From Henriciella mobilis (GTDB lineage Bacteria; Pseudomonadota; Alphaproteobacteria; Caulobacterales; Hyphomonadaceae): 64,000 nt of DNA. The notes beneath the pieces are model-generated. The model worked only from the letters and a program-made list of their open reading frames with translations. It was not told the origin of the DNA and searched no databases. Positions 56,506-63,065 of this stretch are shown here, in pieces. The first letter of the stretch is position 1, and each line of letters opens with the position of its first letter. Position numbers and translations under genes: made by a program. The stretch is taken from NCBI RefSeq assembly GCF_003576315.1, contig NZ_QWFZ01000033.1, positions 248,001-312,000 on the forward strand, read 5' to 3'.

Positions 56506-56581
56506 GCCGGTATAGCTCAGCTGGTAGAGCACCTGATTTGTAATCAGGGGGTCGGGGGTTCAAGTCCCTCTGCCGGCACCA
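56506..56581 (+). tRNA. tRNA-Thr (anticodon TGT), CCA encoded
   Basis: A full cloverleaf: acceptor GCCGGTA / TGCCGGC, D arm with AGCTCAGCTGGTAGAGC, anticodon stem CCTGA/TCAGG around the loop TTTGTAA with anticodon TGT at 56539-56541, T arm with GGGTTCAAGTCCC, discriminator A578 and genomic CCA 56579-56581. Its 3' 46 bases are repeated exactly at 58198-58243. Confidence 0.97.
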
Positions 56582-58197: not shown

Positions 58198-58243
58198 TTT
58201 GTAATCAGGGGGTCGGGGGTTCAAGTCCCTCTGCCGGCACCAC
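58198..58243 (+). repeat. attR-type core: partial tRNA-Thr copy
   Basis: Exact 46-base copy of the tRNA-Thr 3' part (56537-56582). It lacks the acceptor 5' strand, D arm and 5' anticodon stem, so it is not a functional tRNA; it marks the far boundary of the integrated segment. Confidence 0.92.
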
Positions 58244-58321: not shown

Positions 58322-59113
58322 TCAGTGCGAACGGGCGATGCTCGAATCGACAGGCCGGCAGTCATTTGCGTGACGCAGGCGGCTGGCCCCCTCAACAGCG
58401 CTCGTCCGGCTGCGCCCGGCAAGGCCAGGCATGCGGGCGGGCCTTGGCTCGACCCATCGTTGCGCCGACTGCTTGCCGGCCAGTTTCGCAAGCGCTTGCC
58501 AGTCTAGAACCTTGAACCGGTCCGGTTTGGGCAGGTCAATCACGCCGAGGTCTTTCATACGATGCAACATCCGGCTGACGGTTTCGAAGGTCAGCCCGAG
58601 ATAGTCTGCAATGTCGCTGCGGCTCATGCGGATCACGATGTAGGCGCCAGGCGCGCGAGCGGGTGATTTCTCGTACAGAAAGCAGAGGAAGGACGCCGTG
58701 CGTTCGAGCGCGGATTTGCAGCCGAGCAGGGCGGCCTGTTCCTGCGCCGCAAGGAGGCTTTCGGTGAGATAGCTGAAAATCGCGCGACGGAAGTCGGCGT
58801 CGCGCTGAAGGGCCTGTTCGAAGGAGGTGCGTTCATAGACCTCGACCGATACCTCGGTAATGGCCTCAGCGTAATGGCGATATGTATGGCCAAGGTCGAG
58901 GGCGAGAAAGTCGCCCTGAGTCGCAAAGGAATAAATCTGGCGGCGACCATCGGGGAGCAGGCGGTAGACGATGACAACGCCTGACGTGACACGAAAAACC
59001 GAGTGGGCCGGGTCGCCGTCGAGATAGAGTGACTGATGGGGTCTGTATCGGACCTCGTGCTCGCTTTTAATGTCGCTGGCAAGTCTGCGGGACGTAAGCT
59101 CCATCATATGCAC
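58322..59113 (-). CDS. FixK/FNR-type Crp-family regulator
   Basis: A 263-residue Crp/Fnr regulator: cyclic-nucleotide-type beta barrel (YLDGDPAHSVFRVTSGVVIVY), long dimer helix and helix-turn-helix MSRSDIADYLGLTFETVSRMLH with the ExxSR recognition signature of FNR/FixK, which reads TTGAT-N4-ATCAA. The N-terminal iron-sulfur cysteines of FNR are absent, so it is FixK-like. I chose GTG 59113 because GGAGAG lies six bases upstream; ATGs at 59107 or 59104 are alternatives. An unusual basic C-terminal tail of about 45 residues follows the normal domain end. Confidence 0.85.
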   Translation of the reverse strand: MHMMELTSRRLASDIKSEHEVRYRPHQSLYLDGDPAHSVFRVTSGVVIVYRLLPDGRRQIYSFATQGDFLALDLGHTYRHYAEAITEVSVEVYERTSFEQALQRDADFRRAIFSYLTESLLAAQEQAALLGCKSALERTASFLCFLYEKSPARAPGAYIVIRMSRSDIADYLGLTFETVSRMLHRMKDLGVIDLPKPDRFKVLDWQALAKLAGKQSAQRWVEPRPARMPGLAGRSRTSAVEGASRLRHANDCRPVDSSIARSH

Positions 59114-59416
59114 GTCTTTCTCTCCGAACGAAGTCGTTCCTCCCACCTCGCGAGAAATGTGCGCACTTGCGGCCAATTGGTTAATTCGGAAAACTACCTA
59201 ACCGTTTCTTGCGGTCTCCGGCCGGCCGCACCGTGACCCGAACACAGGCCCGAATCCGGCACATCCTGGATTCCTGTGGTGGACCCGGCGGTGTTTGCGA
59301 ACAGAAATATTCGTTTCAGGTCGCGAACATGCTTTGATCGGCGTCAACTCTGGCACGATGTGGGTTCGATACAAAAGAGCCTGGACCCGTGATGCCGATC
59401 AGGAAGAGGACACCGC
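59114..59416. other. divergent intergenic region with degenerate FixK box
   Basis: No gene is supported. It separates the regulator from the host attachment gene and contains TTGAT-CGGC-GTCAA at 59334-59347, one mismatch from the FNR/FixK consensus and centred about 76 bp upstream of the start at 59417. Confidence 0.6.
59334..59347. promoter_or_regulatory. FNR/FixK-type box (one mismatch)
   Basis: TTGAT-CGGC-GTCAA against consensus TTGAT-N4-ATCAA. With the usual -41.5 position, transcription would begin near 59382, 35 bases before the host attachment gene. Confidence 0.65.
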
Positions 59417-59863
59417 ATGAAACTGCCCAACAAGACAATCGTTGCGCTCGCCGACGGCGGCCGGCAATTGCTTCTCGTCAATCAGGGCGACGAGCAGATC
59501 ATTGACTTGCGCCATGTCGATCATGACGAGCTGGATAATCCGCCGGCGCGGGAGCAGGGACGTTCGAAGCCGGGTCAGTTTCAGGCAAGCGGCCATGCTG
59601 GCGGCGGGCCCGAGGGGCCTGACAAGCATGAACGTGCAGAACGCCGTTTTGCCGAAAGGATGGTCGAAAAGCTGTCGAGCCTTGCGGCCAGCGGGACGTT
59701 GAAAAACCTCGTCATTGCGGCGGATCCAAAGACGCTCGGCGAGTTGAGGAGCTGTTATACAGATCCGGTAAGAGCGGCTCTCAAACATGAGATTCCAAAG
59801 GATCTGACAAAATTGCCCATAAAGGATATCGAGCAGGCCATAACAGCCTGGACCGCCGACTAA
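59417..59863 (+). CDS. host attachment family protein
   Basis: A 148-residue protein of the Host_attach (bacterial release-factor-like eRF1 domain) family: IVALADGGRQLLLVNQG at the N-terminus, HERAERRFAERMVEKL in the middle, and LVIAADPKTLGELRSCYTD followed by a DLTKLPIKDIEQAI end. The name comes from an Agrobacterium attachment phenotype; the biochemical function is not established. A FixK-type box lies upstream, so low-oxygen control is likely. Confidence 0.88.
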   Translation: MKLPNKTIVALADGGRQLLLVNQGDEQIIDLRHVDHDELDNPPAREQGRSKPGQFQASGHAGGGPEGPDKHERAERRFAERMVEKLSSLAASGTLKNLVIAADPKTLGELRSCYTDPVRAALKHEIPKDLTKLPIKDIEQAITAWTAD

Positions 59864-59879
59864 GACGGGGCGCGCCCGT

Positions 59880-60401
59880 TTATTCTCCGCCCACGCAGGA
59901 TGCGAGATAATCCAGGGTCTCCTGCGTCCGGAAAACCTGCGCATCATCCGCCCCCGCTGGCGCGGGACCCAGCTTGATGTCGATATATGCCTCGAAACGC
60001 GTCGCGGGCGATGGGTCGTCAACAACCGCTTCCGCGTCGGGGTAGAAGACAAACTGGGAGAAATCTGCCGGAGAATAATGACAGACGGTGGTTTCCAGAC
60101 GGCTTTCGATGAACGTCGACGGCTCGGTGTTGCGGAGCACGGTGAATGTATCGGCCTGATGCTCATGGGCCACTTCGGCTGCCCTGTAGAGGAGATAGTC
60201 CTCAACGGTCTTGTAGGACGTTACCGCATTGCCTTCGAAGCTTATCCGGTAAATGCCTTCCCCTAGGCTTGTTTCGCTATACCCGGCGCCGGACTCTCTG
60301 GCTTGATAGGGGGTTGGCTCTATTGTCTGACATGCTGCGACCGCAAGCGAAGCTGCCAGTGCAAGACTTTTGGGCAGATGTACGAGATTGGTCCGACGCA
60401 T
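59880..60401 (-). CDS. CC0125/CC1285-family lipoprotein
   Basis: A 173-residue lipoprotein with lipobox LAVAAC. The mature domain is GIYRISFEGNAVTSYKTVEDYLLYRAAEVA in parts, then an HYS-containing segment and EAYIDIKLG. It is paralogous to the protein at 62541: both share the YR(I/V)xFxGNxxT...VExxLLYRAAE pattern. ATG 60401 places the signal peptide correctly. The perfect FixK box at 60495-60508 lies about 100 bp upstream and may serve this gene as well as the divergent DUF2267 gene. Confidence 0.8.
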   Translation of the reverse strand: MRRTNLVHLPKSLALAASLAVAACQTIEPTPYQARESGAGYSETSLGEGIYRISFEGNAVTSYKTVEDYLLYRAAEVAHEHQADTFTVLRNTEPSTFIESRLETTVCHYSPADFSQFVFYPDAEAVVDDPSPATRFEAYIDIKLGPAPAGADDAQVFRTQETLDYLASCVGGE

Positions 60402-60494
60402 TGACACTTTTCCTGCTCTCTTTGGAATACACATAGGCGGCCCCACCCGGCCTGCGGAACGCATTCGAATGTGCCTGATTGCCATCATGCGGCT

Positions 60495-60508
60495 TTGATC
60501 TTGATCAA
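60495..60508. promoter_or_regulatory. perfect FNR/FixK box
   Basis: TTGATCTTGATCAA, an exact match to TTGAT-N4-ATCAA, between divergent genes at 60401 (minus) and 60573 (plus). Its centre is 71 bp from the DUF2267 start, suiting a class II promoter with transcription starting near 60543. Confidence 0.88.
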
Positions 60509-60572
60509 GGCGCGGTGACCGGCTCGCCGTAACCTTCAGCCATCAGAAGTCTTCTCCGAAAGGATGACCGCC

Positions 60573-61016
60573 ATGAGTGAGGCTCTTCCCGTTTTCGCGC
60601 AAACGCAGACTGAGACGTATGAGTTCATCGACCGTGTGGCCGAGGAACTTCAGCTGAATGACCGTCATCATGGCTACGCGGCACTGCGGGCGGTCCTGCA
60701 TGCGCTTCGCGATCGTTTGCCGCCGGCTGCGGCTGTGCATCTGAGCGCGCAGATGCCGATGCTGCTTCGGGGTATATTCTTCGAAAGCTGGAAATTTTCG
60801 GAGTCGCCGACAAAGGAACGAAGCGCCGACGATTTCGTGGGCCGTGTGGATGACCGGTTGCCACCTGGCTATCCCCTTGATTCCTGGCCAACCACGCGGG
60901 GCGTCTTCGCCGTGTTGTGGGAGCGAATGGATCCAGGCGAAATCGATAATGTCATCGCGACCTTGCCCGAGGCGATCAAGCGCCTCTGGCCGCAGAAGTA
61001 CGTGGCCGGCCTTTGA
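60573..61016 (+). CDS. DUF2267 protein
   Basis: A 147-residue all-helical DUF2267 protein: FIDRVAEELQLNDRHHGYAALRAVLHALRDRLPPAAAVHLSAQMPMLLRGIFFE in parts, WERMDPGEIDNVIATLPEAIKRLW. The family is common in stress or low-oxygen loci; function unknown. I chose ATG 60573 because AAGGATG precedes it; the ATG at 60564 sits within that site. It probably heads an operon with the next gene, 22 bp downstream. Confidence 0.88.
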   Translation: MSEALPVFAQTQTETYEFIDRVAEELQLNDRHHGYAALRAVLHALRDRLPPAAAVHLSAQMPMLLRGIFFESWKFSESPTKERSADDFVGRVDDRLPPGYPLDSWPTTRGVFAVLWERMDPGEIDNVIATLPEAIKRLWPQKYVAGL

Positions 61017-61038
61017 GAGGATTGGGAAAGCAGACGCA

Positions 61039-61470
61039 ATGACACAGAGATCTTTCGACCTGACAATCGATCCGGCCGTGGCTTACCGGATCGCGGAACT
61101 CGCACGTGAGTTTACGGCCGAGGATTACGGCCCGCAGCCTGATGATGATGAGCGCGAAAGTGATCCGGTCCAGTACGACGAGGCGGAGCTCGACGAGGAT
61201 GTGAATGCAGGGCCAGTCGACCCGGTTCATGCCGAGCTAACAGGCGTGATCGAAGCGCTTGATATTGACGAGTTGCGTGACCTGCTCGCACTGATCTGGC
61301 TCGGCCGGGGCGATTTCGATGGCCGTTGGGACGCCGCCCGGCGACAGGCGCGCGAAACCGAAAGCCTCCACCTCATTTCCTATCTCGAACAGACCCCGCT
61401 GGCGGACGAGTATCTAAGCCAGGCGCTCGACCAGTTGGGCTATCCAGCCGAGGAATACGGCCAGCAATAG
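61039..61470 (+). CDS. DUF3775 protein
   Basis: A 143-residue acidic protein of the DUF3775 type: AYRIAELAREFTAEDYG, a Glu/Asp-rich linker, ELTGVIEALDIDELRDLLALIWLGRGDFD in parts and YLEQTPLADEYLSQALDQLGY. Function unknown. It follows the DUF2267 gene and should share its FixK-type promoter. Confidence 0.85.
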   Translation: MTQRSFDLTIDPAVAYRIAELAREFTAEDYGPQPDDDERESDPVQYDEAELDEDVNAGPVDPVHAELTGVIEALDIDELRDLLALIWLGRGDFDGRWDAARRQARETESLHLISYLEQTPLADEYLSQALDQLGYPAEEYGQQ

Positions 61471-61496
61471 CGGCGGAGTGGCGAACGCCGTCCGGA

Positions 61497-62321
61497 TCAC
61501 CGCGGGCCGGATGGCGGACGGGTCCTTGGTTCAGGGGCATATTCGACGCTCTGGCCCATCCGCGTCGGCTGGGGATACATCGTCATCAGATCGAGAACCG
61601 ATGAGGGCATATCCAGGGAGATGTTGAGACCGAGGGCGGAGGCTTCCTCAGCTGAAATCGGATAGTCATGCGTCCAGTGCCCGCTGCTGAGCGCGTCAAC
61701 CAGGGCGGATCGCTTGCCCGGATCGACATCGGGAGACAGAAGCGCTTCTACCGTTTTGCGCAGCTGATCGAGTGCCTTGCGGGCGACATCGGCCTGGATC
61801 AGCGTTTCATCGTCGATTTCGGCAACCGGCTTTCGGGCAACCACGTCGAGGATGGACACGGCCGGGTACTGGTTGATCTGCGGATCGACGGGCCCGAGCA
61901 CCGAATGCGGTGACATGACGATCTCGTCCGCCGCCAGGGCGATCAGCGTTCCACCGGACATGGCCATATGGGGAATGTAGACGGTGACCTTGGCGGGATG
62001 TGCGCGGATAGCCCTTGCAATCTGGGTCGAAGCGAGGACCAGCCCGCCCGGTGTATGGAGGATCAGGTCGATCGGGACATTGTTCCCCGTCATCTGGATG
62101 GCCCGAAGGACGGCTTCGGAATCCTGCATGTCGATGTAGCGCATGACCGGAAATCCCAGCAGCCGCATGGTTTCCTGCCGGTGGATGAGCGCGATTGCCC
62201 GGGAACCATTGGCCCGTTCGATCTGCGATAACTTCCCGCGCCGGGACCATTCCATGACGCGAGTGCTTATGATCGGCTGGAGCGCGAAGACGAGAAATAG
62301 GATCCATATCAGGTCAGTCAT
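61497..62321 (-). CDS. SDH-family Clp-fold serine proteinase
   Basis: A 274-residue membrane-anchored protease-like protein of the serine-dehydrogenase-proteinase (Clp fold, SppA-related) family. One N-terminal helix is followed by LILHTPGGLVLASTQIA, the nucleophile Ser in HMAMSGGTLIALAADEI and the HSVLGPVDPQI block. It may process or clear membrane proteins. It sits among FixK-type genes, but no FixK box was seen directly upstream of it. Confidence 0.9.
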   Translation of the reverse strand: MTDLIWILFLVFALQPIISTRVMEWSRRGKLSQIERANGSRAIALIHRQETMRLLGFPVMRYIDMQDSEAVLRAIQMTGNNVPIDLILHTPGGLVLASTQIARAIRAHPAKVTVYIPHMAMSGGTLIALAADEIVMSPHSVLGPVDPQINQYPAVSILDVVARKPVAEIDDETLIQADVARKALDQLRKTVEALLSPDVDPGKRSALVDALSSGHWTHDYPISAEEASALGLNISLDMPSSVLDLMTMYPQPTRMGQSVEYAPEPRTRPPSGPR

Positions 62322-62465
62322 GTCGTTGCGTTTTCTCTCCGGTTTAGCCCATCGCCGTCACTGTATTCAGTTGTCGCCCGGAAGCCATGCCTTCAATAGC
62401 GCAGCAAAGCGCCGAAATTTCGGTTCAGGTCACCTCGCTTATGGTCATTGCGGCGCAGGCCGGAT

Positions 62466-62479
62466 TTGACATTGCGCAA
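62466..62479. promoter_or_regulatory. degenerate FixK-type box
   Basis: TTGA-CATTGC-GCAA fits the relaxed FixK pattern TTGA-N6-GCAA and the TTG-N8-CAA core, but differs at three positions from the strict FNR box. It is centred 68 bp upstream of the lipoprotein start at 62541, the same geometry as the perfect box at 60495. Confidence 0.5.
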
Positions 62480-62540
62480 GGCGCCCGCTTCGCAGCTGCG
62501 CCAATGTCCAGCGGCAATCAGGCCGAGGAGGACCAGTTTC

Positions 62541-63065
62541 ATGCGTATTGCACTTCTGACCGCACTTGTTTCCGCTACGCTGCTTGCCGCCTGCCAGACG
62601 GCAACACCCTACGGGCCAATGGACGGACAGTATGGCTACAGCGACCAGCAGATCGAGAGCGATCGCTATCAGGTCGCGTTCCGGGGCAACAGCGCCACGC
62701 CGAGGGAAACCGTAGAGGCTTTCCTGCTTTATCGGGCCGCTGAGCTCACCGTGGCGAATGGTGCCGACTATTTCATGGTCGTCGAGCGCGCGACCGATAC
62801 GAGCTCAACCTGGCGCGCCGCCGGCCATACACCCGCAGTATACGGATATTATCCCTATGCGCGCCACCGCTTCCCATACTATTCCTATGGCTATCCTTGG
62901 GCATACGATGCCACCTACCGTGAAAGCCGCCGCTACGAGGCACATGCCTATATAAAGCTATTTAGCGGCGATAAGCCGGAAGATGGCGCAAACGTTTATG
63001 ATGCGCGTGAAGTGTTGGCTAATCTCGAGCCGATGATCCTGAGTTCGCAGGCCAGTAGCGGCTAG
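62541..63065 (+). CDS. CC0125/CC1285-family lipoprotein
   Basis: A 174-residue lipoprotein (TLLAAC lipobox) paralogous to the one at 59880. Shared features are DRYQVAFRGNSATPRETVEAFLLYRAAELT in parts and EAHAYIKLFSGDKPEDGANVYDAREVL; it also has a Tyr/Pro-rich insert (YGYYPYARHRFPYYSYGYPWAYD). ATG 62541 has GAGGAGGA upstream. Function unknown. Confidence 0.85.
   Translation: MRIALLTALVSATLLAACQTATPYGPMDGQYGYSDQQIESDRYQVAFRGNSATPRETVEAFLLYRAAELTVANGADYFMVVERATDTSSTWRAAGHTPAVYGYYPYARHRFPYYSYGYPWAYDATYRESRRYEAHAYIKLFSGDKPEDGANVYDAREVLANLEPMILSSQASSG

Follow-up and report, generated by a model that had tools for sequence, protein, structure and literature searches.

Which condition governs the group of genes that surrounds a FixK-type regulator in the alphaproteobacterium Henriciella mobilis? 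The group lies in a 64,000-nucleotide stretch of contig NZ_QWFZ01000033.1 (positions 248,001 to 312,000 of the forward strand; hereafter the window), where the regulator stands beside genes for a protein annotated as "host attachment protein" (HAT), a DUF2267 and a DUF3775 protein and two lipoproteins (LIPa and LIPb), with TTGA-N6-TCAA-like boxes ahead of several of them. The original prediction, made from the letters of the window, had read these genes as a local FixK regulon and had offered oxygen limitation as a lead to their roles; the gene set it named, including two related lipoproteins, is as we find it, with both lipoproteins matching NF047637. Our analysis makes it quite likely that the locus is an outlying arm of the FixL-FixJ-FixK low-oxygen cascade, with an output that would be protective rather than respiratory. 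The regulon reading is borne out by conserved boxes, the co-occurrence of regulator and HAT, a FixJ-type site ahead of the regulator gene and the presence of FixL and FixJ in the genome. On this evidence, which is that of sequence, control by low oxygen appears well supported; for HAT we infer a function in dormancy.

In the proposed scheme, a fall in oxygen would cause FixL to phosphorylate FixJ, and phosphorylated FixJ would raise expression of the FixK-type regulator, which would bind the boxes and activate HAT, the DUF2267-DUF3775 pair and LIPb. HAT, a stand-alone eRF1/Balon-like domain without the GGQ motif, would then occupy or guard idle ribosomes, and the lipoproteins and the DUF2267-DUF3775 pair would act in the envelope or under stress. 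Targets and neighbours visible in the sequence look like stress genes (HAT, DUF2267-DUF3775 and the lipoproteins, with Hsp20 and universal stress proteins in relatives).

The scheme would supply a widespread family annotated "host attachment protein" with a regulator, with low oxygen as its condition and with ribosome parking as its predicted biochemical role, and would assign the same likely condition to DUF2267, DUF3775 and CC0125-type lipoproteins. The regulatory system itself is of a known type, and the interest lies in HAT as a target and in the apparent separation from the cbb3 oxidase.

Conservation of the boxes and linkage of regulator and HAT

A search of 101 related genomes gave HAT in 45 of them. 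After removal of short upstreams and of those whose last 60 bp duplicated another, the 78 HAT matches left 54 upstreams in one comparison and 53 in that with permuted palindromes; one HAT gene (G073) is counted twice among them with different starts and has no box in either. An exact box occurs in 10 of the 53 upstreams, and allowing one mismatch raises the number to 23, against averages of 0.03 and 1.14 for 59 permuted palindromes; the far-upstream control region has a box in 1/53. Within the genus, every HAT gene above the Pfam cut-off (9/9) has, 50-85 bp ahead of its start, a box with no more than one mismatch; a tenth, weak match (G010) scores below the cut-off.

The third box of the locus is degenerate, with two mismatches to TTGAYN4RTCAA, and fits the FixK2 consensus TTGA/C-N6-T/GCAA, which a passage of PMC9104804 gives with GCAA allowed as the right half. 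Since counterparts stand ahead of 3/3 other regulator-linked LIPb orthologs examined (sequences in Table 1) and the published consensus allows GCAA, this box is not noise. Two other regulator-linked genes of the LIPa type were seen, one with a one-mismatch box and one with none. Judged from these upstreams, the boxes are best conserved ahead of HAT and LIPb.

Within the genus, regulator and HAT occur together. Regulator orthologs (above 150 bits) and HAT (above its cut-off) occur in the identical 9 of 29 genus genomes, a coincidence of 1 in 10 million if genomes are treated as independent; the 150-bit line was chosen after the gap had been seen, the lowest ortholog kept scoring 167 and the next protein in the genus 91. 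DUF2267 is present in 6/9 regulator-bearing genus genomes and 0/20 others (P 1.8e-4), and DUF3775 in 3/9 and 0/20 (P 0.02). Beyond the genus, 2 of 80 named loci hold HAT with 120 bp or more of upstream sequence, and both belong to Henriciella-like genomes.

Boxes are also clustered at regulator loci. The 11 regulator loci, 150 kb in all, contain 16 exact boxes (106 per Mb) versus none in the 34 cco/FixJ loci (126.6 kb), and boxes with one mismatch or none reach 299 per Mb in the former versus 111 per Mb in the latter. A second regulator locus in genome G022 repeats the set, with a lipoprotein, DUF2267 (one-mismatch box), DUF3775 and a homolog of the ribosome hibernation-promoting factor. In the same genome, a stretch at G022:C16:42000-57000 (L054) has a second FixK-type regulator beside apparent F-type ATPase genes, recognized by eye, with an exact box at the outer end of these genes; it also contains a hibernation-promoting factor homolog with a cold-shock domain.

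Spacing of the boxes and the possibility of chance

All three predicted box sequences were found where they had been placed, and the predicted distance of 68-77 bp ahead of the start codons is correct when measured from the box centre: 76.5 bp to the HAT ATG at 59417, 71.5 bp to a DUF2267 start at ATG 60573 (62.5 bp to ATG 60564) and 68.5 bp to the LIPb ATG at 62541.

Could such sequences near starts have arisen by chance, with no regulatory meaning? Counts over the genome leave some room for this. Among the 3,973,091 bases scanned, TTGAYN4RTCAA occurs at 8 sites versus 4.8 expected from base composition, and TTGA-N6-TCAA at 27. The perfect box is found 3 times versus 0.7 expected, and TTGAYN4RTCAA is barely above chance; the genome as a whole is thus close to chance, which under the refuting condition of the original prediction would count as a warning. 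Because box frequency is near chance, the genome-wide count alone proves little, and we dropped it as proof of a regulon. Two of the 8 sites fall in the 4.7-kb stretch (Poisson P 4.5e-5), a post hoc figure as the stretch was picked for its boxes. Two-mismatch matches are common: the window holds 24 versus 17 expected, and as 6 of 100 shuffles reach 24, degenerate matches alone carry no meaning. Set against chance are the boxes of HAT and LIPb orthologs, conserved at similar distances and measured against permuted and far-region controls, and the clustering at regulator loci; together they make the chance explanation highly improbable.

The regulator and its probable link to FixL and FixJ

The prediction of a FixK-like regulator with an ExxSR recognition helix agrees with what we found, namely cNMP_binding and HTH_Crp_2 domains and the residues E175, S178 and R179. 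The E..SR helix is invariant across 11 aligned sequences, and the top PDB match is FixK2 (4i2o, E 7e-32). HTH_Crp_2 matches eight proteins of the genome, and E..SR is present in this regulator only; the one further CRP-like protein has VHVSR, and the remaining six look Lrp- or ArsR-like by eye. As the sole E..SR protein among the eight, the regulator is the likely reader of the boxes.

Its cysteines are solely at positions 129, 141 and 249 (numbered from the second Met). The N-terminal cysteine cluster of FNR is absent, an absence that counts as a criterion of FixK, and a serine occupies the position of the redox-active Cys183 of FixK2. Because the regulator is without the FNR cysteines and Cys183, the oxygen lead stands by way of the FixL-FixJ link and not through the regulator's own cysteines.

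That link would begin with the sequence GTAGTTTTCC, which lies at -90 ahead of the regulator gene and resembles FixJ sites; a passage of PMC4999443 gives GTAGTTTCCC as the SELEX motif of FixJ and TAAGTAATTTCCCTTA as a Sinorhizobium meliloti site. For 11 regulator upstreams (that of the window and 10 others), an equally good fit was reached in 1/300 shuffles for the former motif and 0/300 for the latter. The site is clear in 8/11 upstreams, weaker in G019 and unclear in both G022 copies.

FixL and FixJ homologs are found near the cbb3 operon and divergent to it. The FixL homolog (L228:4607-5734 of the same genome) adjoins FixJ, has PAS, HisKA and HATPase domains and shows no membrane part by eye. 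Aligned with Bradyrhizobium FixL (E 1.5e-37), its PAS domain retains a histidine at the place of the heme histidine. Alignment positions 74 and 88, which we take to be the alanine-mutant positions R206A and R220A, place His200 at the conserved H68 of the query; the idea that an arginine replaces the heme histidine was dropped because of this placement. Among 26 genus FixJ loci, 23 show a FixL stretch, each with the histidine, a count that is the same whether or not rows are filtered for HD or RY, and the open-access literature gave no match for a FixL PAS domain without the proximal heme histidine. A FixJ-like TACGTAG ahead of the ccoN gene of H. mobilis is absent from the ccoN upstreams of seven relatives, and no claim is made for it.

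The cbb3 oxidase and an alternative cue

The usual target of FixK is cbb3. In all regulator-bearing genomes that hold it (7/7), the ccoN match has no box of up to one mismatch within 500 bp, and the other two regulator-bearing genomes gave no ccoN match. For six of the seven, the whole upstream stretch scanned (959-3,163 bp) is free of such a box. The seventh (G003) has a one-mismatch box 795 bp upstream of ccoN; the site also has one mismatch in G026 and two in G016, G028, G024 and G011, at 795-797 bp. This recurrence hints at conserved coding sequence. Two genomes without the regulator (L203 and L206) have ccoN upstreams that come at best within two or three mismatches of the box. The absence of a box near cbb3 is no proof of absent control, and the apparent separation of the FixK-type regulator from cbb3 would be an unusual feature, FixK being reported in PMC4999443 to drive cco in Caulobacterales.

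This separation bears on another explanation, in which the regulator does read genuine boxes but FixJ and FixK report redox state, nutrient limitation or some other cue in place of oxygen. It would account for a cbb3 operon without a nearby FixK box, for a regulator without the FNR cysteines and Cys183, and for targets and neighbours that resemble general stress genes. However, FixL retains the histidine aligned with the heme histidine and is encoded near cbb3 and FixJ, and genes of the same annotation are induced by microoxia in Bradyrhizobium, where two proteins named "host attachment", likened to HAT by name, appear in the microoxia-induced set in a portion of PMC6515984. We therefore regard another cue as improbable.

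Fold and possible role of HAT

HAT belongs by its Pfam scores (114 and 98 bits versus gathering thresholds of 27.7 and 26.7) to baeRF family 12 / Host_attach. It has 148 residues in a single domain. An AlphaFold model was built on 3 sequences (pLDDT 78, with a poor loop at 42-66), and Balon heads both structural match lists made with it (Foldseek E 8.7e-6; Z 12.9 over 127 residues, rmsd 3.0). Matches to eRF1 follow with Z up to 11.8, a small gap, and then Pelota; rows outside the eRF1/Balon/Pelota superfamily have Z of at most 7.9. The model shows an eRF1-like middle-domain fold without GGQ, features that HAT would share with Balon (Msmeg1130, Rv2629); Balon differs in its N- and C-terminal domains, both of which HAT lacks, so that the three-domain architecture of Balon is not present. 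On the basis of the model, the name "host attachment" is probably misleading, and HAT may be a single-domain cousin of Balon under low-oxygen control.

Published work offers a context for such a role. Part of PMC6514570 describes how Burroughs and Aravind found baeRF-1 families as neighbours of the hibernation-promoting factor and suggested that they are connected with the shutdown of translation. According to passages of PMC10901736, mycobacterial Balons are hypoxia-induced and Balon genes often adjoin RaiA or Hsp20 genes; the Balon survey described there dropped sequences under 300 residues.

For this last step of the scheme only, HAT could instead be a rescue factor of the peptidyl-tRNA hydrolase type or act at the surface in attachment, with no part in hibernation. 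The fold is common to eRF1 and Pelota, the Z score for eRF1 nearly equals that for Balon, and the Pfam name is Host_attach; yet GGQ is missing in 51/52 HAT sequences and Balon comes first in both structural lists, and we consider these alternative roles rather unlikely. A broader proposal, tentative and somewhat doubtful, is that baeRF12 proteins are single-domain, Balon-like hibernation factors switched on by FixK as oxygen is exhausted, and that the FixK regulon of Henriciella-type genomes is an accessory dormancy module uncoupled from cbb3 and converging with the hypoxia-induced Balon of mycobacteria. If true, two distant bacterial groups would couple an eRF1-family ribosome factor to hypoxia via unrelated regulators.

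Comparison with known systems

The closest parallel is the FixLJ-FixK2 system of Bradyrhizobium diazoefficiens, which uses the same box. Table 2 of PMC9104804 lists bll4645, annotated as a host attachment protein, with the box TTGATCGGGATCAA and a 10.6-fold drop without fixK2; it is likened to HAT by annotation alone. The FixK2 dependence of a host attachment gene there makes the regulatory kind a known one. The same table includes Hsp20, a universal stress protein and a metallo-beta-lactamase-thymidine phosphorylase operon, gene types found again close to boxes or to the regulator in relatives of Henriciella. A gene named DUF2267 or DUF3775 is absent from that table, which has unnamed hypothetical proteins. 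The two systems differ at the fixNOQP (cbb3) promoter, which a passage of PMC9104804 describes as FixK2-activated, whereas the 7 regulator-bearing genomes with cbb3 show no box that close (500 bp) to it, and at Cys183 of FixK2, which is a serine in the Henriciella regulator.

Caulobacter, according to passages of PMC4999443, has a FixJ site ahead of fixK and FixK as its sole FNR/FixK-type regulator, comparable with the FixJ-type site and the single E..SR regulator here; its FixK reportedly governs cco, cyd, hemN and further redox genes, whereas in Henriciella cco has no box nearby and the visible targets look stress-type. In the open-access literature we found no match linking DUF2267 with hypoxia, nothing in titles and abstracts on regulation for DUF2267 or DUF3775, and no paper naming Henriciella among the matches listed.

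Points against a low-oxygen regulon

Several results weigh against the reading of the locus as an arm of the low-oxygen cascade. Alongside the near-chance genome count of TTGAYN4RTCAA stand the 30 of 53 HAT upstreams without any box of at most one mismatch and two permuted palindromes found in 19 and 17 of 53 (the next, 4), both of which overlap with the real box. Over all relatives, DUF2267 upstreams have a box in 5/14, but their far control does in 3/14; DUF3775 upstreams do in 4/23, with one unrelated permutation also at 4; and regulator upstreams do in 5/42 near versus 5/42 far. Plasmid HAT genes matched 91 records, and three of the four examined, from Dinoroseobacter, Qingshengfaniella and Sphingomonas, have no nearby box, so the link of HAT to the box is lineage-dependent; in S. 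fredii, a row of Hsp20, universal stress protein and HAT genes lies downstream of an exact box. The co-occurrence in the genus may stem in part from inheritance or transfer as one block. The top NCBIfam match of the regulator, Caulobacter FixK (NF050806), scores 141 bits versus an equivalog cut-off of 300, and as it falls short of this the protein is termed FixK-type; by that rule it is no Caulobacter FixK ortholog. The missing FNR cysteines and Cys183, the annotation-based likeness of bll4645 to HAT, and a HAT that has one of the three Balon domains, in a model on 3 sequences, count on the same side.

Layout of the locus and other sites

Table 1. Features of the regulator locus, in window coordinates.
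Feature	Position	Strand	Remarks
FixK-type CRP/FNR regulator	58322..59107	-	Pfam cNMP_binding + HTH_Crp_2; FixK2 4i2o top PDB match; E..SR
FixJ-type site GTAGTTTTCC	59188..59197	-	90 bp upstream of regulator start; one mismatch to GTAGTTTCCC
FixK box TTGATCGGCGTCAA ahead of HAT	59334..59347	+	conserved in genus HAT upstreams
HAT, 'host attachment' / baeRF family 12 protein	59417..59863	+	PF18856 8.8e-33, PF10116 6e-28
LIPa, CC0125/CC1285-family lipoprotein	59880..60401	-	NF047637; divergent from perfect box
Perfect FixK box TTGATCTTGATCAA	60495..60508	+	1 of 3 perfect sites in genome
DUF2267 protein	60564..61016 (likelier start 60573)	+	PF10025 3.4e-31; PDB relative 2ysk = hypothetical protein
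DUF3775 protein	61039..61470	+	PF12616 7e-18
SDH-family ClpP-fold serine protease	61497..62321	-	PF01972, NF047768; divergent from third box
Degenerate FixK box TTGACATTGCGCAA	62466..62479	+	orthologous boxes TTGACATTGCTCAA, TTGACTTGGCTCAA, TTGACTTCGCTCAA
LIPb, CC0125/CC1285-family lipoprotein	62541..63065	+	NF047637 5.7e-52

DUF3775 is probably co-transcribed with DUF2267, from which a 22-bp gap separates it. Because the perfect box also faces LIPa, 93 bp away, and the third box also faces the SDH-family protease gene, the target list may be longer than the three boxed genes. Membership of the protease in the regulon is uncertain, and no match to it was found in the regulator-linked loci of relatives that were scanned.

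Two further TTGAYN4RTCAA sites elsewhere in the genome sit at promoter distance. One is 62 bp upstream of a small lipoprotein-like gene, after which come genes for a cytochrome c and a metal P-type ATPase, and the other 77 bp upstream of an EF-hand gene. The exact site at C23:778164 has its next start 222 bp downstream. The exact sites in C33 (trpC-like), C14 (multicopper-oxidase-like) and at C23:890448 appear by eye to lie within coding frames and were set aside as chance-like.

The EF-hand gene comes after a row of metallo-beta-lactamase, thymidine phosphorylase and PRPP synthetase genes (L068, C26:59000-69000 of the same genome, 1011-4768). Metallo-beta-lactamase with thymidine phosphorylase is a class under FixK2 control in B. 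diazoefficiens, and in G019 the same row directly adjoins LIPa, HAT and the regulator.

Near the regulator gene, the 3' end of a tRNA-Thr gene recurs as a 46-bp perfect repeat 1,661 bp downstream of its own copy (window positions 56506-56581 and 58198-58243). The repeat resembles the att pair of a small insert that would end directly beside the regulator gene and, by eye, contains an HTH gene and a gene for a 312-aa protein.

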